From positions 354,416-418,415 of the forward strand of contig JBBCGY010000001.1 of the NCBI GenBank assembly GCA_037200005.1: a stretch of DNA of 64,000 bases, written 5' to 3'. Under the pieces are notes generated by a model. The model worked only from the letters and a program-made list of their open reading frames with translations, had not been told where the DNA came from and did not search any database. Below are positions 4,548 to 16,055 of the stretch, piece by piece. Every line of letters starts with the position of its first letter. Position 1 is the stretch's first letter. Source of the stretch: Alphaproteobacteria bacterium (GTDB lineage Bacteria; Pseudomonadota; Alphaproteobacteria; UBA9219; RFNS01). The position numbers were made by a program, and so were the translations under genes.

Positions 4548-4913
4548 ATGAAGAGATTGCTGGCCTGTCTTGTCGTCCTTGCCCTGCTCGCGCCGGGAAC
4601 GGCGTTCGCGACCTATTCCGGCTTCGGCACCGGCACGCCTTATGACAGCACCGGCGGCATCAAGGTCACCAGCGAGGTGGTTTCGTCGGGCGAGATCAAG
4701 GCTGAAAAGCCCGCCAAGAAGGCGGACAAGAAGAGCAAGCACGTCAAGAGCAAAAAGAAAAAAGCCGCCAAAAAGACGGTCAAGAAAGCGCCTAAGCCCA
4801 AAAAAGCGAAGAAGGCCAAAAAGGGCAAGAAGGCCAAAGGCGCGGCGAAAGCCAAGCCCGCCGCGATCAAGAAAGACACGCTGCCTCCGGTCGACTTGCC
4901 TCCCGTACAATAG
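4548..4913 (+). CDS. Exported lysine-rich protein with histone H1-like tail
   Basis: 121 residues. The signal peptide (about residues 1-21, predicted cleavage after TAFA) is followed by about 30 ordinary residues (TYSGFGTGTPYDSTGG). From about 45 to 108 the chain consists almost wholly of Lys, Ala and Pro in KKA/KPKK repeats, ending in DTLPPVDLPPV. The tail composition resembles histone H1-like or AlgP-like proteins, but a signal peptide argues against a nucleoid role and for binding an anionic envelope polymer. Function unknown. The next gene's ATG follows its stop codon with no gap, so the two are probably one unit. Confidence 0.75.
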   Translation: MKRLLACLVVLALLAPGTAFATYSGFGTGTPYDSTGGIKVTSEVVSSGEIKAEKPAKKADKKSKHVKSKKKKAAKKTVKKAPKPKKAKKAKKGKKAKGAAKAKPAAIKKDTLPPVDLPPVQ

Positions 4914-5211: not shown

Positions 5212-7827
5212 TCATCCGGCCCGCGGCACGTCCAGCGGCAGGTTCAGCTGCTTCGGCCTGCGCCGCAGTCTCGGCACGGCGTTGACCATCGAGACGGTCA
5301 GCGCCGCCCAGTAGGGCAGCGACTGCACCGTGAGCATCAGCGCCCATAGCACGGCATTCTGGTTGGCTACGCCATACTGGTTCAGGATAAAGCTGGCGCA
5401 GAAAATCAATCCGCCGAGCAGCGTCAATTCTTCCCAGGCCATCAGAACGCCTTGCATGAAGGCCGGGCGGTCTTCGCATTTCGGGGTGCGGAAAAACGGC
5501 GTTCCCGACGTGAACAGCCCCTGCCATACCGCCCGTCCCACGGCGTGGGTCAGCGCCATGCCCGCGATCGCCGCGCCGATCCGGTCGCGCCACGGGCATT
5601 TGATGCGCTCGGCATAGAGCCAGAAACCGGCGATGATCTTGAAGGCGAAGGCGCTCAGCGTCGGGATCAAGAACACGGCGGGCGGAAATTCCACCCATCG
5701 CAGCGCCAGCATCCCCGACCAGAAGATCGCCGCCACGGCGAAGACCAGATTGGCGGCGTCGGCGAACCAGGGCAGCCAGCCCGAGACGAAGTGATAGCGC
5801 TGGCCCGTCGTCAGCTCCTCGCCGCCCGGCAGCAGCGACGCCATGTGCCGCTTGATGATCTGCACCGCGCCATAGGCCCAGCGGAAACGCTGGGATTTAT
5901 AGCCCGCGAAACTGTCGGGAATCAGCCCCTTGCCGAAAGAATGATTGAGATAGACCGATTCATGCCCCGCCTCGAACAGGCGCAGCCCCAGTTCGGCGTC
6001 CTCGCAAATGCACCACTCGCTCCAGCCGCCGACATCGGCCAGCGCGGTTCTGCGGATCAGCGTCATGGTGCCGTGCTGGATGATCGCGTTGCGCTCGTTC
6101 CGCTGCACCATGCCGATATGGAAAAATCCGGCATATTCCCAGTTGCACATGGTCTTGAAAGCGTCGCCCGGCCAGTCGCGGTAATCCTGCGGCGCCTGGA
6201 CGAAGGCGATTTCCGGACGCTCGAAATAAGGCATCGTGGCGGCAAGCCAGTCCTTGGTCACGACATAGTCGCTGTCGATCACCCCGACGATGGCGGCGTC
6301 CGGGGCGGTTTGCGTGAGCGCGAAATTCAGTGCCCCCGCCTTATAGCCCGGCCATTTCGGCAGATGGAAGAAACGAAAACGGGCGCCGAGCAGCGCGCAA
6401 TGCTCTTCGAGCGGCTTCCATACCGCCTCGTCCTTGGTGTTGTTGTCGATCACCAGCACTTCGAAATCGGGATAGTCCATCGCCGCGAGGGCGTTCAAGG
6501 TCTCGATCACCATATGCGGCGGCTCGTTATAGCACGGCACGTGGATCGAGACCTTCGGCGCATTGGCCTGCGGCGGGCCGGCATGCGGCAGGAAATTGCG
6601 CCGCCAGCGGCTCGACCACACCACTTCGGTCAATTCGTAGCCGTCCACCAGCAGCACGGCGAGCAGCACGATCTGCGCCGCGATCAGCGCCACCCAGGCG
6701 AGCGAAGACACCGAGATGATATTTTCGATGAGCGCCGCCATCACCGCCCAGACCAGCACCGAGGCGACGGCCTGGATCAGTCCGGCGTAGAAGAACTGCC
6801 CGCCGAGCTTGAGGCTGCCATGTCGCCGCAGGAACCAGAACATCGGCAGCAGCGCGAGAAGCGTCGCCGCCAGGAAACCGTCCACCCAGTCATGCCGCTC
6901 GCTGATCATGCCGCTCATCGGGAATTTCGGGCTTCCGTCGCGCTCCCACAGGCCCCAATGCGCGCCGACCGAGCCTTCGATGGCGCGCTTCCACGGCGAG
7001 TCGAAAGCCTCGATGATGAAATAATCGAGCTGTTTTTCGGCCGCGAAATTGAGGAACTGGCGGATGAACTTTCCCTGGTTGATGCGCGACGGTTCCGCGC
7101 CCCTCACCCATTGCCCTTCGCTCGGCCAGCCCACTTCGCCGATGATGACATGCTTGCCCGGGAATTTTTTCTGCAATTCGTCATAACGGGTCGCGACGTA
7201 CTCGACGGCCTGGCCGATCGGAACGCCTTCCCAATAAGGCAGGATATGAACGGCGATGTAATCGGTAGCGGCGGCGAGTTCCGGATATTTCACCCATATA
7301 TGCCAGGGCTCGGCGGTCGAGACCGGCACCGTGACGTTCTGCTGAACCCGGCGGATATAGTCGGCCAGCTGCTCGGCGTCGACGTCTTCCCGCAGCAGGC
7401 TTTCGTTACCGACGATGATGCGGCGCACGTTCGGATTCGCGCGCGCAAGCTCGATGCCGGTCGCGATCTCCAGCTCGTTGGCGGCAAGGTCGGGCCCGAT
7501 CCACACCCCAAGCGTCACGTCGAGCCGGTGCCGCGCCGCGAGCCGGGGCACCATATCCTGTCCGCCATTGGCGCCGTAGGTTCTCACCCCTTGCGTGTGA
7601 GAGGCCATCAGCGCGAGATTGGCGTCGATTTCCTCCGGCTCGGCGTGATGGGCTTCTTCGGCTTTCAGCGCGCTGCGCCACGGCGTATAGGACAGGCCGG
7701 CGATGAAGCCGCCCCACGGCTCTTCCTCCACGCGTTGGTTCGAGAGCGCCCACAGGCCGAGATTGACGGCGGCAATGAGGGCGACGACGAGAACGGACCG
7801 GCGATAGGCGAGCAATTTGTTCTTCAT
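5212..7827 (-). CDS. GH17-GT2 fusion, NdvB-like beta-glucan synthase
   Basis: 871 residues. After one N-terminal membrane segment (about 10-30) comes a GH17 glucanase-like domain (about 38-310) with both expected catalytic acids, Glu142 in VGNESL and Glu231 in IIGEVGWPS. Several membrane segments (about 318-395) lead to a family 2 glycosyltransferase domain (about 425-660) with the processive signature: the VIDSD aspartates (518/520), ED at 609-610 and QRFRW (646-650). More membrane segments follow. The same fusion occurs in Pseudomonas NdvB-type periplasmic glucan synthases, so polymerisation of UDP-glucose with glucan remodelling or cyclisation on the periplasmic side is inferred. Monocistronic and divergent from the next gene. 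Confidence 0.88.
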   Translation of the reverse strand: MKNKLLAYRRSVLVVALIAAVNLGLWALSNQRVEEEPWGGFIAGLSYTPWRSALKAEEAHHAEPEEIDANLALMASHTQGVRTYGANGGQDMVPRLAARHRLDVTLGVWIGPDLAANELEIATGIELARANPNVRRIIVGNESLLREDVDAEQLADYIRRVQQNVTVPVSTAEPWHIWVKYPELAAATDYIAVHILPYWEGVPIGQAVEYVATRYDELQKKFPGKHVIIGEVGWPSEGQWVRGAEPSRINQGKFIRQFLNFAAEKQLDYFIIEAFDSPWKRAIEGSVGAHWGLWERDGSPKFPMSGMISERHDWVDGFLAATLLALLPMFWFLRRHGSLKLGGQFFYAGLIQAVASVLVWAVMAALIENIISVSSLAWVALIAAQIVLLAVLLVDGYELTEVVWSSRWRRNFLPHAGPPQANAPKVSIHVPCYNEPPHMVIETLNALAAMDYPDFEVLVIDNNTKDEAVWKPLEEHCALLGARFRFFHLPKWPGYKAGALNFALTQTAPDAAIVGVIDSDYVVTKDWLAATMPYFERPEIAFVQAPQDYRDWPGDAFKTMCNWEYAGFFHIGMVQRNERNAIIQHGTMTLIRRTALADVGGWSEWCICEDAELGLRLFEAGHESVYLNHSFGKGLIPDSFAGYKSQRFRWAYGAVQIIKRHMASLLPGGEELTTGQRYHFVSGWLPWFADAANLVFAVAAIFWSGMLALRWVEFPPAVFLIPTLSAFAFKIIAGFWLYAERIKCPWRDRIGAAIAGMALTHAVGRAVWQGLFTSGTPFFRTPKCEDRPAFMQGVLMAWEELTLLGGLIFCASFILNQYGVANQNAVLWALMLTVQSLPYWAALTVSMVNAVPRLRRRPKQLNLPLDVPRAG

Positions 7828-8730: not shown

Positions 8731-8768
8731 TGGCGAAAAAGCCTCCCGGCTTTTTCGCCACGTTTTTT
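8731..8768 (+). terminator. Intrinsic terminator after the hypothetical lipoprotein gene
   Basis: Perfect 12-bp stem TGGCGAAAAAGC (8731-8742) and GCTTTTTCGCCA (8749-8760) with a 6-base loop, followed by CGTTTTTT. It isolates the flagellar operon from the upstream gene. The rest of the gap up to flgE holds only the sigma-54 promoter. Confidence 0.9.
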
Positions 8769-8914: not shown

Positions 8915-8929
8915 TGGCACGGCGTTTGC
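8915..8929 (+). promoter_or_regulatory. Sigma-54 (RpoN) -24/-12 promoter for flgE-flgK-flgL
   Basis: TGGCACG (8915-8921), 4 bases, then TTGC (8926-8929): an exact match to the RpoN core with correct spacing. It lies about 70 bases before the flgE start, which carries a good ribosome-binding site (AAAGGAG, 8986-8992). Class III/IV hook genes in many alphaproteobacteria are RpoN-dependent. No enhancer site for a FlbD/FleQ-type activator was identified by eye. Confidence 0.85.
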
Positions 8930-8998: not shown

Positions 8999-10354
8999 AT
9001 GAGCGTCTTTTCAGCCCTCAACGTCGCCGTCAACGGCCTCGACGCCCAGTCGAGAGCTTTCGCGAACGTCTCGGACAATCTCGCCAATACCCAGACCGTG
9101 GGCTATAAGCGCGTCGATACCAGCTTTCAGTCTCTGGTCACGGCCTCCAACGCCAACATCAACAATCCCGGCGGCGTCAGCGCGACCCCGATCTACCAGA
9201 ATTCGATCCAGGGCAATTTGACCCAGGTGGATAGCGGCACGTCGCTCGCGATCCAGGGCAACGGCTTCTTCGGCGTGCGTCGCGGCGTGACCAATGCCTC
9301 CGGCGATACCGCCTTCAGCGAAGAATCATTCTATACGCGCCGCGGCGATTTCGCGCTTTCCAAGGACGGCTATCTTATCAACGGCGCGGGCTATTACCTG
9401 ACGGGCTATCCGCTGGACGCGGACGGCAACAAAGCTTCCGCCGATCCCAACGAAATCCGCATCTCGCAGCTGATCGATAGCCCCGTGCCGACCAGCAGCC
9501 TTTCCTACGCCGCGAATCTTCCCGCGGGCGTGCCGATAACCTACGCCTCGTCGCCCTCGACCATCAACGTCATCGACGCTTTGGGCGGCAAGCACGAAGT
9601 CACTTTCACCTGGAACAAGGATAACGGCGGGGTCGCCGACGGCGAATGGACGCTCACGGCCAAAATCGCGGGAGGCGGAACGGCCGGCGCCGATCTGACG
9701 CTCAACATACCGTTCAATTTCGATACTTTAGATCCGAACGCGGGCACGCTCGCGGCCTATGTAGCCGCCGCCGCCGCCGGCTCGGGCATCGAGGCCGGGA
9801 CGGGCTATACCGTCACGAATCCCGCCAGCACGGTTCCGGCCGGCAAAGCCGTGGTTGCGTTCACCGCGACATTCGCCGGCGCGGGCGCGCAGAACGTCAC
9901 GCTGGATTTCGGCAGCTATCAGACGGCGGGCGGCGTGACGCAGTTCGCCGACAGCGATCTGCAGGTCACGACCTTCCAGCAAAACGGCATTCCGCGCGGT
10001 TCGTTCCAGGCGCTTGAAATCGACAAGAACGGCTTCGTCAGCCTGCATTACGATAACGGTTCGTCGAAAATCTTCTATCAGGTGCCGATCGTCCAGTTCT
10101 ACGCGCCGAATAACCTGCAGCGCCAGGAAGGCAACGCCTTCTCGGAAACCACGGAGAGCGGCAGTCCGCGCCTCGGCGCGGCGGGCGAGCTTGGCGCGGG
10201 GAATATCGTCGGCAATGCGCTCGAATCCTCGAACGTCGATATCGCCTCGGAATTCGCCAAGATGATCCAATACCAGCGCACCTATTCGGCCAACTCGCGG
10301 GTCATCAGCACCGGCTCGAACATGCTGGAAGAAATCATCAATGTCGTCAGGTAA
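8999..10354 (+). CDS. flgE: Flagellar hook protein FlgE
   Basis: 451 residues. The N-terminus has the rod/hook signature (SVFSALNVAVNGLDAQSRA followed by VSDNLANTQTVGYKR). The FlgE central domains follow, and the C-terminus has the matching hook signature (ESSNVDIASEFAKMIQYQRT, then SANSRVISTGSNMLEEIINV). It polymerises into the flexible hook outside the cell. The ATG at 8999 is preferred over an upstream in-frame ATG because of the ribosome-binding site and the conserved N-terminus. First gene of a sigma-54 operon with flgK and flgL. Confidence 0.95.
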   Translation: MSVFSALNVAVNGLDAQSRAFANVSDNLANTQTVGYKRVDTSFQSLVTASNANINNPGGVSATPIYQNSIQGNLTQVDSGTSLAIQGNGFFGVRRGVTNASGDTAFSEESFYTRRGDFALSKDGYLINGAGYYLTGYPLDADGNKASADPNEIRISQLIDSPVPTSSLSYAANLPAGVPITYASSPSTINVIDALGGKHEVTFTWNKDNGGVADGEWTLTAKIAGGGTAGADLTLNIPFNFDTLDPNAGTLAAYVAAAAAGSGIEAGTGYTVTNPASTVPAGKAVVAFTATFAGAGAQNVTLDFGSYQTAGGVTQFADSDLQVTTFQQNGIPRGSFQALEIDKNGFVSLHYDNGSSKIFYQVPIVQFYAPNNLQRQEGNAFSETTESGSPRLGAAGELGAGNIVGNALESSNVDIASEFAKMIQYQRTYSANSRVISTGSNMLEEIINVVR

Positions 10355-10469: not shown

Positions 10470-11864
10470 ATGAGTCTCGACACCGCCATGAGCGGGGCGA
10501 CATCCGCCCTCAGGACCGTGCAGCAGCAGATCTCGCTGGTCTCCAACAACATCAACAACGCGACCACCCCCGGCTACACCCGCAAGGGCGTCAATCTCTC
10601 GCCGATGGGCGACGGCGTCGAGCTGGTCGGCGTCAAGATCAGCGATTACACGCGCGCGACCGACAGCAATGTCTTGAAGCAGCTTGCCGCCGCGCTTGCC
10701 ACCGACGGGATGAAATCGGCGCAGCAGGAATATCTCAGCCAGGTTCAGGACATTCTGGGCTCCAGCAGCGACAATGTCAGGCTCACCGCCGCGGTGCAGG
10801 CTTTCGGCGATTCATGGACGCAGCTTCAGGCCGAGCCGGAAAGCGTCGCGCTGCAGAACGAGGTCATCCGCAATGGCACCTCGCTGGCCGCCGAAATACG
10901 CCGCATCTCAAGCCAGGTCGAACAGCTCGACCGCTCCATCCAGAGCGATATTTCATCCTCCGTGACCGAGCTCAACCAGGCGCTCAGGGATGTCGAATCC
11001 GCCAATAGCCAGATTGCCACCGCGCATGCCGCCGCGCAGCCGACCGGCAATTACGAAGACCAGCGCGACGTCGCGCTGCAAAAGATCGCCCAGTTCGTCG
11101 ATATCCGCGTCATGGATCGCTCCAACGGCCAGATCGCCGTCTATACGCCCAAGGGCTATGCCCTGCTCGACGGCCAGCCGCAGCAATTCGCCTTCGACGG
11201 CACCAACGTCACGGTCGCGGGCAGCGCCACGGTCGTGAACGCCAATCTCGCGGGCGGCAAGTTCGAAGGCCTGCTCGGCCTGCGCGCCAATTCTTCGCCC
11301 GCCGCCGCCGATCCCAGCCCGACGCAGGAAGTGATCAGAAAATTACGCGCGCAGCTCGACCAGATCGCCAACGGCTTCCTCGCCGACACCACCGGCCCCG
11401 ACAGTTTCGCCCATGTCTATAACGGCGCGACCGCCGCGACCGGAGAATTGGCTACCGGCTTCTTCACCGGCACGAACCGCACCGATTTCAACGTCAATGT
11501 CAGCCTGCTGAACGGCAGCGCCACGGTCAAAAGACTGGCGGCCACGCCGGTCGCCACGGCGATGGCCGACGCGACCCGCAGTTTCGCGGCGGCCGGACAG
11601 ACGACTGCCAACGTCACCTATGGCGGTTATGCCCAGGACATGATCTCGACCTGGCAGACCGGCGCGAAGCGCGCCAAAGACGAAGCTGCGACGGCGGCAA
11701 GCCAGAAGGATTATTTCACCAAGCTTAACACCGACCAGACTGCCGTCAGCGTGGATAGCGAGATGGTCAAGCTGCAGCAATTGCAGATTTCCTATCAGGC
11801 GGCGGCGCGCCTGATCGGCGTGATCCAGCAGATGAACCAAGTCATCATCAACATGGTGTCATAA
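10470..11864 (+). CDS. flgK: Flagellar hook-associated protein 1 FlgK
   Basis: 464 residues, shorter than enterobacterial FlgK (about 550), mainly through a smaller variable middle. The N-terminus carries SGATSALRTVQQQISLVSNN and ATTPGYTRKGV. The C-terminal helix has the hook-filament junction signature (DSEMVKLQQLQISYQAAARL followed by QMNQVIINMV). It forms the first ring between hook and filament. GGAG (10457-10460) precedes the ATG. Its stop directly abuts the flgL start. Confidence 0.93.
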   Translation: MSLDTAMSGATSALRTVQQQISLVSNNINNATTPGYTRKGVNLSPMGDGVELVGVKISDYTRATDSNVLKQLAAALATDGMKSAQQEYLSQVQDILGSSSDNVRLTAAVQAFGDSWTQLQAEPESVALQNEVIRNGTSLAAEIRRISSQVEQLDRSIQSDISSSVTELNQALRDVESANSQIATAHAAAQPTGNYEDQRDVALQKIAQFVDIRVMDRSNGQIAVYTPKGYALLDGQPQQFAFDGTNVTVAGSATVVNANLAGGKFEGLLGLRANSSPAAADPSPTQEVIRKLRAQLDQIANGFLADTTGPDSFAHVYNGATAATGELATGFFTGTNRTDFNVNVSLLNGSATVKRLAATPVATAMADATRSFAAAGQTTANVTYGGYAQDMISTWQTGAKRAKDEAATAASQKDYFTKLNTDQTAVSVDSEMVKLQQLQISYQAAARLIGVIQQMNQVIINMVS

Positions 11865-12818
11865 ATGATCAGCGGCGTCAGCAATCTCAGCATTTTAAGC
11901 CAGGCGACCCGGTCGCTCAACACCGGCCAGGAAAACATGGCCGATCTTACCCAGCAGCTCGCGAGCGGGCGCAAGACGAGCGACATTACCGATTATTCGG
12001 TCTTCGACGCGCGCACGCTGCTCAGCAGCCGCGATCTGCAGGATAAATCCACCGCCTATATCGCCGCGATTCACAGCGTCAGCCCGCGCCTCTCGGTTTA
12101 TCAGAGCACGCTCTCCAGCCTCACGACATTGACCACCAATATCCAGAGCCTGATCAACAATACGCAGAACGCCACGGCGGCGCAGGAGCAAGGCTTGCCC
12201 GCGCAAATCAGCGCCGCCATCGATCAGGTGGAATATTATCTCAACCAGAAGGTCGGCGACCGGTACATCTATTCCGGGACGCGCTATACCCAGAAGCCGA
12301 TCGGCGACATCGCCGCCTTGCCCACGCCGCCGGCCGAGACCTTTCCCGCCGTCAGCGGCACGCTGCCGCCCTATGACGGCGCCGCGCCGGGCACCGACGC
12401 CAAGGCCTATGCTCAAGACAAGGTGATGATCGACGACAACCTGCAACTGAATTACGGCATCCCCTCGACCTCCCTGGGCATCCAGAACATGATCCAGGGG
12501 CTGCGTTTCGCCCTGTCCGCCACGAAGGACAGCGCCAATTACGATACCTATATGGCGCAGGCGCAGAGCTATTTGGGAACCGCCGTCAATGGCCTGCGCA
12601 ATCTCGAGGCCCAGACGGCGGGCAACCAGAAGATCCTGGCTCAAGCGGAAGCGGATCAGAAATCCACCATCAATCTTTTGCAGACCCGGATCGGCAATAT
12701 CCAGAATGTCGATCTTAACGAAGTGTCAGTAAAGATCAATGCATACCAGACTCAACTCAATGCTTCTTACGCGGCGACGGCAAAACTTATCAATATGTCG
12801 ATCCTGAATTATCTATAG
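11865..12818 (+). CDS. flgL: Flagellar hook-associated protein 3 FlgL
   Basis: 317 residues. A flagellin-like N-terminal coiled region (ISGVSNLSILSQATRSLNTG, then LTQQLASGRKTSDITDYSV) and a C-terminal one (DLNEVSVKINAYQTQLNASY) identify FlgL, the second junction ring protein. No spacer separates it from flgK, so coupled expression is expected. The operon may continue into the next two genes, which follow on the same strand without a terminator. Confidence 0.92.
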   Translation: MISGVSNLSILSQATRSLNTGQENMADLTQQLASGRKTSDITDYSVFDARTLLSSRDLQDKSTAYIAAIHSVSPRLSVYQSTLSSLTTLTTNIQSLINNTQNATAAQEQGLPAQISAAIDQVEYYLNQKVGDRYIYSGTRYTQKPIGDIAALPTPPAETFPAVSGTLPPYDGAAPGTDAKAYAQDKVMIDDNLQLNYGIPSTSLGIQNMIQGLRFALSATKDSANYDTYMAQAQSYLGTAVNGLRNLEAQTAGNQKILAQAEADQKSTINLLQTRIGNIQNVDLNEVSVKINAYQTQLNASYAATAKLINMSILNYL

Positions 12819-12873: not shown

Positions 12874-14370
12874 ATGCAACAACATATCGATCTCGGGCCG
12901 GTTGAAATCAGCTACGCCGCGGCTTTGCGGGGCGTCAGGCCAAAAGGTTCGAGCCAGTCTTTCCGTTATATACGCGCCGGCCGCATGGACGCGGATGAAA
13001 TGCTATGCCTCGCGGCCAGCAATCCCGAAGGCGAATTCCTGTTCATCGACGAGAATGCGAGCCAGGCCGCCGAAGCGCAGCGCCGGGCGCGCGATCTTCA
13101 TCTTGCCAATGCCGAGTTTATCGGCATGAGTCTGGCGAAGCTCGAGGACGCGCTGGCGGCCGGCACCCATTTCATCGCCGCCGCCGACTATTTCTGCGTC
13201 GACCTGAGCTATGACGTGGCCGATAACGCCTCCTACGCGCACCAGCTTGCCGGCTCGCTGGTGCGGCCCGGCGGCCTGTTCGTCATTCGCTACGCGCCCT
13301 TCGCCAGCGCCCGGGACAGCCTGCATTTCATGACGGCGGAATTCGCTCCGGAACTAAAACCGAGCCAGCATACCGAATTTCTGCATGAATTGAAGCAGCT
13401 CGGCCATGCCTATTTCGCGCAGCATCCCGAGGACTCGGCCGCGCTCGACAACGCGCTGGGCGCCCAGAATCCCGAAAAATTCCTGAACGAATTCGCCGTG
13501 GCCACCAAGCCGCAATCGAGGACCATCGCCACGCTCGCTTCCATGGTGCCGCAGAAGTTCGCCTTTGTCGGCGACGCCCGTTTCTCCGCCAACTATCTCG
13601 AAATGATGGTGCCGAAGCCGTCGCAGGAAATACTTTATTCGCTTCGCGGGCATCTGCTGTACGAGGTCATCAAGGACTTCTCGGCGGCCCATGCTTTCCG
13701 CACCGACATCTGGATCAGGCAGCCGGGCGATTTCACCGGCGACCTCGCGCAGCTTTACGGCAATTTTTTCTACGGCCTTACCGACATGACGGGACCAGTG
13801 CCGGAAACCATCATGGCCGGAGGGCAGAGTCTCGATCTCTCCGCGCCGATCCTCGCGGCGCTGCTCAAATTCATGCATGTGATGCCGCTGACGGTCGGCG
13901 ATTTCCTCGATCATCCCGACGGCCGCGAGTTTAAGCCTCTCGATGTCGTCATGGCGGTGCAGATGCTGGTCGCCTGCGGCATCGCCGCGCCGATGCGCGG
14001 CAGCTTCGCAGGGCTCGGCCAGATCGATTACCGCTATCCCCGCCTTGCCGGGCTGTTCAATCAGCAGCTTCGCGCCGAACCGCTCCATGGCATGAGCGCC
14101 ACGCTGGCCTCGACGGTCGCGGGGCGTCCGGTCAAGCTGGAACTGCCCGAAGCGCTGGTGCTTCAGGCCGTCGGCCGGGTCGGATTCGAGGAATCCGCCG
14201 GGGCGCTGATGACGGAATTGCAGCGCGTCGCGGGCAACCCGGCGCAAGCCCGGCTGGTCTTTCCCTTCGCCCTGACGCCCGAGCATCATTTCGCCGAAAG
14301 CATGATCCGGCGGGTTTGCGAGCGCAATATCGTGAACTGGTATGCGCTGGGCGTGCTGGACGCGGCATAG
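12874..14370 (+). CDS. Methyltransferase-regulatory-domain protein with degenerate SAM site
   Basis: 498 residues. The layout matches proteins with a class I methyltransferase followed by a methyltransferase regulatory domain (PF10119 type). Residues about 31-110 align to the methyltransferase fold (acidic FIDENASQ at the end of strand 2, NAEFIGMSL), and FLNEFAVATKPQ resembles the regulatory domain's start. The Gly-rich SAM motif I (usually like LELGCGxGG) is replaced by IRAGRMDADE, so catalysis is doubtful. A good ribosome-binding site (GGAGGA) precedes the ATG. Its place behind flgL suggests a flagellar role; this is inference. Confidence 0.65.
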   Translation: MQQHIDLGPVEISYAAALRGVRPKGSSQSFRYIRAGRMDADEMLCLAASNPEGEFLFIDENASQAAEAQRRARDLHLANAEFIGMSLAKLEDALAAGTHFIAAADYFCVDLSYDVADNASYAHQLAGSLVRPGGLFVIRYAPFASARDSLHFMTAEFAPELKPSQHTEFLHELKQLGHAYFAQHPEDSAALDNALGAQNPEKFLNEFAVATKPQSRTIATLASMVPQKFAFVGDARFSANYLEMMVPKPSQEILYSLRGHLLYEVIKDFSAAHAFRTDIWIRQPGDFTGDLAQLYGNFFYGLTDMTGPVPETIMAGGQSLDLSAPILAALLKFMHVMPLTVGDFLDHPDGREFKPLDVVMAVQMLVACGIAAPMRGSFAGLGQIDYRYPRLAGLFNQQLRAEPLHGMSATLASTVAGRPVKLELPEALVLQAVGRVGFEESAGALMTELQRVAGNPAQARLVFPFALTPEHHFAESMIRRVCERNIVNWYALGVLDAA

Positions 14371-14411
14371 GCGCCGGATGACGTCCGATCCCGGTCATTT
14401 GGTGCCCGGCC

Positions 14412-16055
14412 ATGCCGACCGGTAAGCCCGCCGCCCAGATCGAAGAAGCCATGGAACTGCACCGGCGCGGCGATGTCGGCGCGGCGGCGGCGCTTTACCG
14501 GAAAATCATCGATGCCGACCCGGCCAATGCGGACGCATGGCAGCTTCTGGGGGTCGTGGCGCGGCAGATGGGCAAGACCGATCTTGCGCTGCGGCTGATC
14601 GCCGAGGCCCTCAAGCTCAATCCGCGCCACGCGCCCGCGCTCGCCAATCACGCGCTGCTGCTGCGCGAAGGCGGCGATCTCGATGCCGCCAGGAAACAGG
14701 CGGAAGCGGCGGTCGAGGCCGATCGGCATTATCCCGAGGCGCATACGGCGCTGGCGGGGGCGCTGCAGGCGCAGCGGGATTTCGCGGGCGCGCTGCGGCA
14801 TTATGAAATCGCGGCGCTGCGGAAAACCGGCGATCCCGACCTTTATAACAACATCGCCATCGCCCGGCAGCGGCTCGGGCTTCTGGCCGAGGCTTACGAT
14901 GCGGTGGCGCAAGCCTTGAAATTGAAGCCCGGCCTCGCCCGCCTGCACCATACGCGGGGCAATATCCTGCGCGCGGCGGGCTATCCCGATCTCGCCTGCG
15001 ACGCGTTCGCCGAAGCCCTGCGCCTCGATCCGGGGCTGAAGGAAACGGAAGTCAACGCCGCGATGACGCATCTTTTGATCGGGGATTTTCCGCGCGGCTG
15101 GGAATTGTTCGACCGGCGCGGCAAGGCGGACGCGCGGCATGAGAGCTTGACGCGCTGGCGGGGCGAGAAAAACGCGTCGATCCATTTGCTGATCCATGCC
15201 GAACAGGGACTCGGCGATACGATTCAATTCTCGCGCCTGGTCTTCTGGGCGCGCGGGCATATTGGCCGCATCATCCTCGAAGTGCAAAAGCCGCTGCGCT
15301 CGCTGATCGCGGCGTCGTTCCCGGACATGGATGTCATTGCGTCCGAGGACGATATCCCGGCGGGCGCGACGCATCATTGCCGTTTGCTGGATATCGCCGG
15401 GATGATGGCGCTCGACGGCGGCAATATTCCGGGCGCGGTTCCCTACATCAAGGCGCCGCCGCTGGCCGAGCCGCCGCGACTGTTGCTGGCGGGACGGAAA
15501 AAGCCCGTCATCGGCCTGGTCTGGGCGGGCAATCCCGGCCATCTGAACGACGCCAACCGTTCGCTGAAACTGCAGCAGCTCGCGCCCGCGCTGTCGCCTT
15601 TCGCCGCGCATATGGTTTCGCTGCAAAAAGGCCCGCAGGCCGAGGAGCTGGCATCGTCGGGCCTCGATATCGCCGACGGCGGCGCGCTGCTCGATGATTT
15701 CTCGGCGACGGCGGCGATGCTGGACGGCATCGACCTGCTGATCAGCGTCGATACGTCGGTCGCGCATCTCGCGGGCGCGCTTGGCCGTCCGGTCTGGGTA
15801 ATGCTGCCTTACGATCCCGATTGGCGCTGGCTGCTGGAGCGGCAGGATGCGCCCTGGTATCCTTCGGCGCGGCTCTATCGCCAGGCGGCGCCGGGCGATT
15901 GGGCGGAGCCGCTCGGAAATATGGCGGGTGATCTTGCTGCCTTCATCGGAGGCGACCCTTCCGTTCTGCAACCAACGGTTTGGGATCACCTTCCGGCGCG
16001 CCGCCCGCGTACGCCGCTCAAACTGCCCGGATTGGACGCGGGCGAATCTTCATGA
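14412..16055 (+). CDS. TPR protein with C-terminal GT-B glycosyltransferase domain (GT9/FlmG-like)
   Basis: 547 residues. Six or so TPR units occupy about residues 5-240 (for example PANADAWQLLGVVARQMGKT and PDLYNNIAIARQRLGLLAEA). The C-terminal domain (about 255-515) has heptosyltransferase-like motifs: HAEQGLGDTIQFSRL, PVIGLVWAGNPGH and DLLISVDTSVAHLAGALGRP, the last matching the nucleotide-sugar site. Caulobacter FlmG, a flagellin glycosyltransferase, has this same order of TPR binding domain then GT-B. Given the position behind flgEKL, flagellin or hook glycosylation is a reasonable inference. Confidence 0.8.
   Translation: MPTGKPAAQIEEAMELHRRGDVGAAAALYRKIIDADPANADAWQLLGVVARQMGKTDLALRLIAEALKLNPRHAPALANHALLLREGGDLDAARKQAEAAVEADRHYPEAHTALAGALQAQRDFAGALRHYEIAALRKTGDPDLYNNIAIARQRLGLLAEAYDAVAQALKLKPGLARLHHTRGNILRAAGYPDLACDAFAEALRLDPGLKETEVNAAMTHLLIGDFPRGWELFDRRGKADARHESLTRWRGEKNASIHLLIHAEQGLGDTIQFSRLVFWARGHIGRIILEVQKPLRSLIAASFPDMDVIASEDDIPAGATHHCRLLDIAGMMALDGGNIPGAVPYIKAPPLAEPPRLLLAGRKKPVIGLVWAGNPGHLNDANRSLKLQQLAPALSPFAAHMVSLQKGPQAEELASSGLDIADGGALLDDFSATAAMLDGIDLLISVDTSVAHLAGALGRPVWVMLPYDPDWRWLLERQDAPWYPSARLYRQAAPGDWAEPLGNMAGDLAAFIGGDPSVLQPTVWDHLPARRPRTPLKLPGLDAGESS

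Follow-up and report, generated by a model that had tools for sequence, protein, structure and literature searches.

A relative of outer membrane protein lysine methyltransferases with a decayed AdoMet site in a flagellar late operon of an alphaproteobacterial order

The outer membrane (OM) protein lysine methyltransferases PKMT1 and PKMT2 of Rickettsia and KmtA of Acinetobacter act on exported surface proteins, and in PKMT1 the residues Asp102 and His146 form critical hydrogen bonds to AdoMet (PMC11784438). The protein analyzed here has the same domain order, matches the PKMT fold over its whole length and contains the PF10119 domain. In contrast to PKMT1, PKMT2 and KmtA, its family has mostly lost AdoMet motif I and wholly lost the AdoMet-binding His and the motif IV Trp, together with the Asp in 27 of 32 members, and it is encoded in a flagellar operon, a location not known for the described enzymes. 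A methylase-related protein tied to flagella is also found in Salmonella, i.e., the flagellin lysine methylase FliB. FliB depends on a [4Fe-4S] cluster bound through a Cys-rich motif (PMC8598068), whereas our protein has a class I methyltransferase fold with four scattered Cys residues.

Flagellin may also be glycosylated. FlmG, the flagellin O-glycosyltransferase of Caulobacter, combines an N-terminal TPR domain with a C-terminal GT-B domain (PMC7591256). Its donor is pseudaminic acid, which is made via NeuB. A TPR glycosyltransferase (TPR-GT) with this domain layout is encoded next to the PKMT-like protein.

Gene order behind flgL

We analyzed a stretch of 64,000 nucleotides from one alphaproteobacterial contig, in the following called the window. 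The flagellar operon in it comprises these features:

8731–8760 (+), intrinsic-terminator-like stem-loop, strong, with a 13-pair stem followed by a T run; lies before promoter and operon
8915–8929 (+), sigma-54-type promoter TGGCACGGCGTTTGC, a motif match to TGGC-N7-TTGC, 5' of flgE
8999–10354 (+), flgE, hook protein; NCBIfam PRK05682 (331 bits) and TIGR03506 (268 bits)
10470–11864 (+), flgK, hook-filament junction protein 1; TIGR02492 (230 bits, cut-off 171)
11865–12818 (+), flgL, hook-filament junction protein 3, directly behind flgK; Flagellin_C above cut-off, TIGR02550 below cut-off (77 bits)
12874–14370 (+), PKMT-fold protein with decayed AdoMet site; intact ORF, 498 aa
14412–16055 (+), TPR and GT-B glycosyltransferase of OGT/SPY/FlmG architecture; intact ORF, 547 aa
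16103–17113 (+), mltG/YceG-like gene; PF02618 (264 bits), 47 bp behind the TPR-GT gene

For flgE we took the ATG at 8999 as start; the ORF list begins at a TTG further upstream. The NCBIfam identities of flgE and flgK are secure, and flgL is assigned from Flagellin_C, the sub-threshold FlgL model and its position. As the original prediction had stated, the PKMT-like gene and the TPR-GT gene follow flgL on the same strand, with gaps of 55 and 41 bp, respectively, and a scan of the window found no terminator-like site on the + strand between 12232 and 16080. The mltG/YceG-like gene is possibly the last gene of the operon.

It had likewise been predicted that these are late flagellar genes read from a sigma-54 promoter. 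The window contains 7 TGGC-N7-TTGC motifs where 4.5 are expected, which does not exceed chance. At the related loci, the motif lay upstream of flgE within 100 bp in 24 of 25 cases, and in all 25 with one base relaxed, compared with 2.5% of stretches drawn at random from these loci. The late-operon reading is hence well supported.

Of the order's 33 genomes, 31 yielded the PKMT-like gene, among them all 21 of good quality, and each time it is the next gene after flgL (gap −113 to 55 bp). In the remaining two, G012 and G022, the match to flgL is truncated close to a contig end, and the TPR-GT gene of G012 begins about 120 bp from the contig end; assembly gaps therefore explain why the gene is lacking there. 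A sample of 385 genomes of the class, 194 of which had flgK above cut-off, yielded one further full-length relative outside the order. It belongs to G132, a member of another order, shares 27% identity and is also encoded directly behind flgL. More distant matches in class and phylum have canonical motifs where these were read and do not lie beside flgE, flgK or flgL. The constant partner of flgL throughout the order is the PKMT-like gene.

The same constancy was not found for the TPR-GT gene, so that the two genes do not form the fixed pair originally envisaged. Of the 30 operons of the order that could be assessed, 18 have TPR-GT as the next gene after the PKMT-like one, as does G132. In the other 12, the next gene encodes a calcineurin-like phosphatase or is unidentified, or nothing follows on the strand. 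This excludes TPR-GT as an obligatory partner of the PKMT-like protein. Calcineurin-like metallophosphatases take the place of TPR-GT in four genomes from two genera of family f3, with a Pfam match in G015 and similar sequences in G020, G026 and G031. Oriented along the PKMT-like gene, they are located as follows:

L029:9233-9976, calcineurin-like metallophosphatase, the one with a Pfam match
L066:3065-3790, calcineurin-like metallophosphatase, by similarity
L071:9898-10626, calcineurin-like metallophosphatase, by similarity
L016:2967-3692, calcineurin-like metallophosphatase, by similarity

Fold and AdoMet site of the PKMT-like protein

The first gene behind flgL had been described as methyltransferase-like. 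In the window protein, the Pfam methyltransferase domain stays below cut-off (17.1 vs 27 bits) and only PF10119 passes. A phmmer search of the PDB with the single sequence gave nothing useful, whereas a profile of 19 relatives matched Rickettsia PKMT1/2 (E 5e-10). We modeled the window protein with AlphaFold2 (pLDDT 88.7, pTM 0.87). Foldseek matched the model to PKMT1 (5dnk) over the whole length with E 4.7e-17, and also to 5doo; VIA against PKMT1 gave Z 20.7 with 412 residues aligned at an rmsd of 6.3. Other methyltransferases scored well below PKMT1 and matched mainly the N-terminal domain. The whole-length matches thus cover the complete PKMT architecture, i.e., AdoMet, dimerisation, middle and C-terminal domains in about 500 residues. 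Profile-profile alignment (hhalign) with 19 canonical relatives from the class extended over 482 columns (P 100%, E 2e-55). From the whole-length PKMT1 match and this alignment we conclude that the protein is truly related to the OM protein lysine methyltransferases. PF10119 is present in 19 of 19 flagellar and 19 of 19 canonical relatives; the Pfam methyltransferase domain, in contrast, is recognized in all 19 canonical but only two of the 19 flagellar proteins.

The AdoMet site is where the two groups part. We aligned the proteins by HMM, which places PKMT1 Asp102 at window residue 59 and His146 at residue 110, and counted residues in 32 flagellar and 19 canonical relatives. Relevant positions in the window gene are:

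12970–12996 (+), codons of former AdoMet motif I, residues 33–41; IRAGRMDAD where canonical relatives have xELGCGxGx
13048–13050 (+), codon of D59, the PKMT1 Asp102 position; kept in the window protein, lost in 27 of 32 flagellar members
13201–13203 (+), codon of D110, the PKMT1 His146 position and an AdoMet contact; Asp where most canonical relatives have His
13543–13719 (+), stretch matching PF10119 MethyTransf_Reg; 32.1 bits, cut-off 25.5

The window protein accordingly reads RAGRMDA for ELGCGxG in motif I and, of the Asp/His couple, keeps the Asp while the His is replaced by Asp. Across the families, the motif I glycines G38 and G40 are found in five and three of 32 flagellar proteins, respectively, and each in all 19 canonical ones. 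D59, the Asp that binds the ribose, is kept in 5/32 compared with 19/19. In motif IV, neither H110 nor W115 occurs in any of the 32 flagellar proteins (canonical: 15 and 19 of 19, respectively). At the old pocket, other residues have become conserved throughout the flagellar family, i.e., SNPEG at 49–53 and D, N or E at 110.

Conservation at the AdoMet columns was lower in the flagellar than in the canonical group (bootstrap 95% range of the difference −0.25 to −0.16), a drop that runs against the bias expected of a shallower group. In the middle and C-terminal domains it was higher (+0.06 to +0.15), which is partly expected because the flagellar group is less diverged than the canonical set.

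Three proteins of family f2 (G004, G008 and G010) keep ELGCG(T/M)GE and the Asp, and the motif IV His and Trp are gone; the methyltransferase domain of G008 still scores 55.7 bits in Pfam. Phylogenetically, the flagellar proteins group together as a single clade (support 100/100). Within it, a clade of f2 and G132 is sister to all remaining flagellar proteins (95/81), with the placement of G132 unsure owing to its long branch. This position of f2, still equipped with motif I, fits stepwise decay. Judged from the sequences, the simplest history would be that motif IV was lost on the stem and that motif I and the Asp were lost later. Some AdoMet binding may survive in the f2 trio, with motif I and the Asp in place, and in the window protein, with its D59. 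Of the term methyltransferase-like, homology and fold have thus held up; a working enzyme is unsupported with the AdoMet residues lost.

The TPR glycosyltransferase and its donor sugar

The second gene behind flgL encodes a TPR glycosyltransferase, as predicted from the start, with Pfam TPR matches, the structural model and matches to OGT and SPINDLY in agreement. Its two parts are:

14424–15077 (+), TPR superhelix, residues 5–222; Pfam TPR matches and helices of the model
15171–15971 (+), GT-B domain, residues 254–520; motifs EQGLGD, WAGNPxHxND..RS, DTSVAHLAGAL and DPDWRW

The model (pLDDT 89.3) consists of 14 TPR-like helices and a GT-B domain and matched eukaryotic OGT and plant SPINDLY over the whole length with Z of about 20–22. 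Like these, TPR-GT carries a TPR superhelix and GT-B across its whole length, but it has about 14% identity with them and is much shorter. The GT-B motifs are conserved across nine operon homologues.

With FlmG, TPR-GT shares the order of TPR and GT-B domains, a flagellar context and a comparable size (547 aa, 596 aa in FlmG) (PMC7591256). It differs in lying in the flgEKL operon, whereas flmG lies beside flmH, and the likeness is one of architecture. It also differs in genomic background. The original prediction had proposed to look for genes of pseudaminic or legionaminic acid synthesis. NeuB (PF03102) was not found in the window's genome, which is 95% complete, and it is present in only two of 33 genomes of the order; the same search found NeuB in Caulobacter. 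FlmG-type pseudaminic-acid chemistry is hence unlikely for TPR-GT. The parallel with FlmG thus stands for the TPR/GT-B architecture and falls for the sugar: on sequence evidence the likeness is at most one of layout, and the donor is predicted to be something other than a NeuB-made sugar.

A second relative of TPR-GT in the window's genome (G000:C1:1780878-1782615) is broken up over different reading frames and contains an internal TAG, possibly a pseudogene or a sequencing error. The one clear flagellin gene of this genome is located about 1 Mb away (L025:9991-11351, i.e., G000:C1:1388991-1390351) and is followed by flbT, with a GT4-type glycosyltransferase gene a few kb beyond. In G016, the opposite strand immediately downstream of the operon carries a flagellin-like gene (L037:11426-12253, coordinates in the direction of the PKMT-like gene).

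Role of the PKMT-like protein

On balance, we consider the PKMT-like protein to be probably the descendant of a PKMT/KmtA-type lysine methyltransferase that has been taken into the flagellar late operon as a dedicated component and binds flagellar proteins without methylating them. Decay of the AdoMet site makes binding rather than methylation the probable function. The protein would have given up methyl transfer from AdoMet and kept the substrate-binding part of PKMT, and it could work as a cytoplasmic holdase or export adaptor for proteins of the same operon, which fits late-operon co-expression. Likely partners would be the junction proteins FlgL and FlgK, perhaps also hook protein or flagellin. 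Where TPR-GT follows, the PKMT-like protein may present subunits to it. TPR-GT itself is a predicted active cytoplasmic O-glycosyltransferase that would recognize a flagellar subunit via its TPRs, as FlmG does. We infer the chaperone or adaptor role of the PKMT-like protein from the linkage and the retained domains.

In a narrower form, a dead PKMT would have been recruited once, order-wide, as cytoplasmic chaperone or export adaptor for FlgK and FlgL, with f2 as decay caught half way; this version is tentative, and we rate it as possible rather than probable. No genome of the order has FlgN above the curated cut-off, which is only a hint, as the same model misses Caulobacter too.

The altered pocket might instead serve another ligand or chemistry, or be an unusual AdoMet site that methylates the sugar transferred by TPR-GT. 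The newly conserved pocket residues (SNPEG, D/N/E at 110) and the adjoining TPR-GT gene in many genomes speak for such an enzyme. We nevertheless consider it improbable: the PKMT-like gene persists where no glycosyltransferase follows, and the new residues do not correspond to any known cofactor motif. Moreover, sugar methyltransferases normally retain motif I.

Quite improbable, too, is an active modification module as originally suggested, in which the methyltransferase methylates and TPR-GT glycosylates filament or hook subunits. It is consistent with the shared operon and its sigma-54 promoter, with the FlmG architecture and conserved GT-B motifs of TPR-GT, and with the methylation of secreted surface fibres by PKMT homologues (PMC11784438). 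Against it stand the AdoMet-contacting residues, gone in nearly all members, a methyltransferase domain that is unrecognized in 17 of 19 flagellar sequences, an inconstant gene pair and the absence of NeuB. The suggestion is at most half true, i.e., for the flagellar operon and the glycosyltransferase; methyltransferase activity, the fixed pair and nonulosonic acid fall away. That the PKMT-like protein is an adaptor or stabilizer of TPR-GT only, with incidental linkage to flgL, agrees with the 18 operons and G132 in which TPR-GT follows and is just as doubtful, since the constant linkage is to flgL and 12 genomes, some with the phosphatase instead, lack a glycosyltransferase behind the gene.

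Our literature search found no paper on this protein or on a degenerate methyltransferase as a regular member of a flagellar operon, and none on PF10119 or on a pseudo- or catalytically inactive methyltransferase with flagella. A dedicated flagellar binding protein of this descent would offer a testable case in which an enzyme for surface protein modification became a binding factor, with what looks like an intermediate still extant in family f2. Meanwhile, these genes should not be annotated as flagellin methyltransferases.

Two further genes lie upstream of the operon in the window. The nearest large one, on the other strand (5212–7827, −), encodes a GT2-type membrane glycosyltransferase of 871 aa with a GH17-like stretch, perhaps a glucan synthase. 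A small Lys/Ala-rich basic ORF (4548–4913, +) is reminiscent of a histone-like tail.
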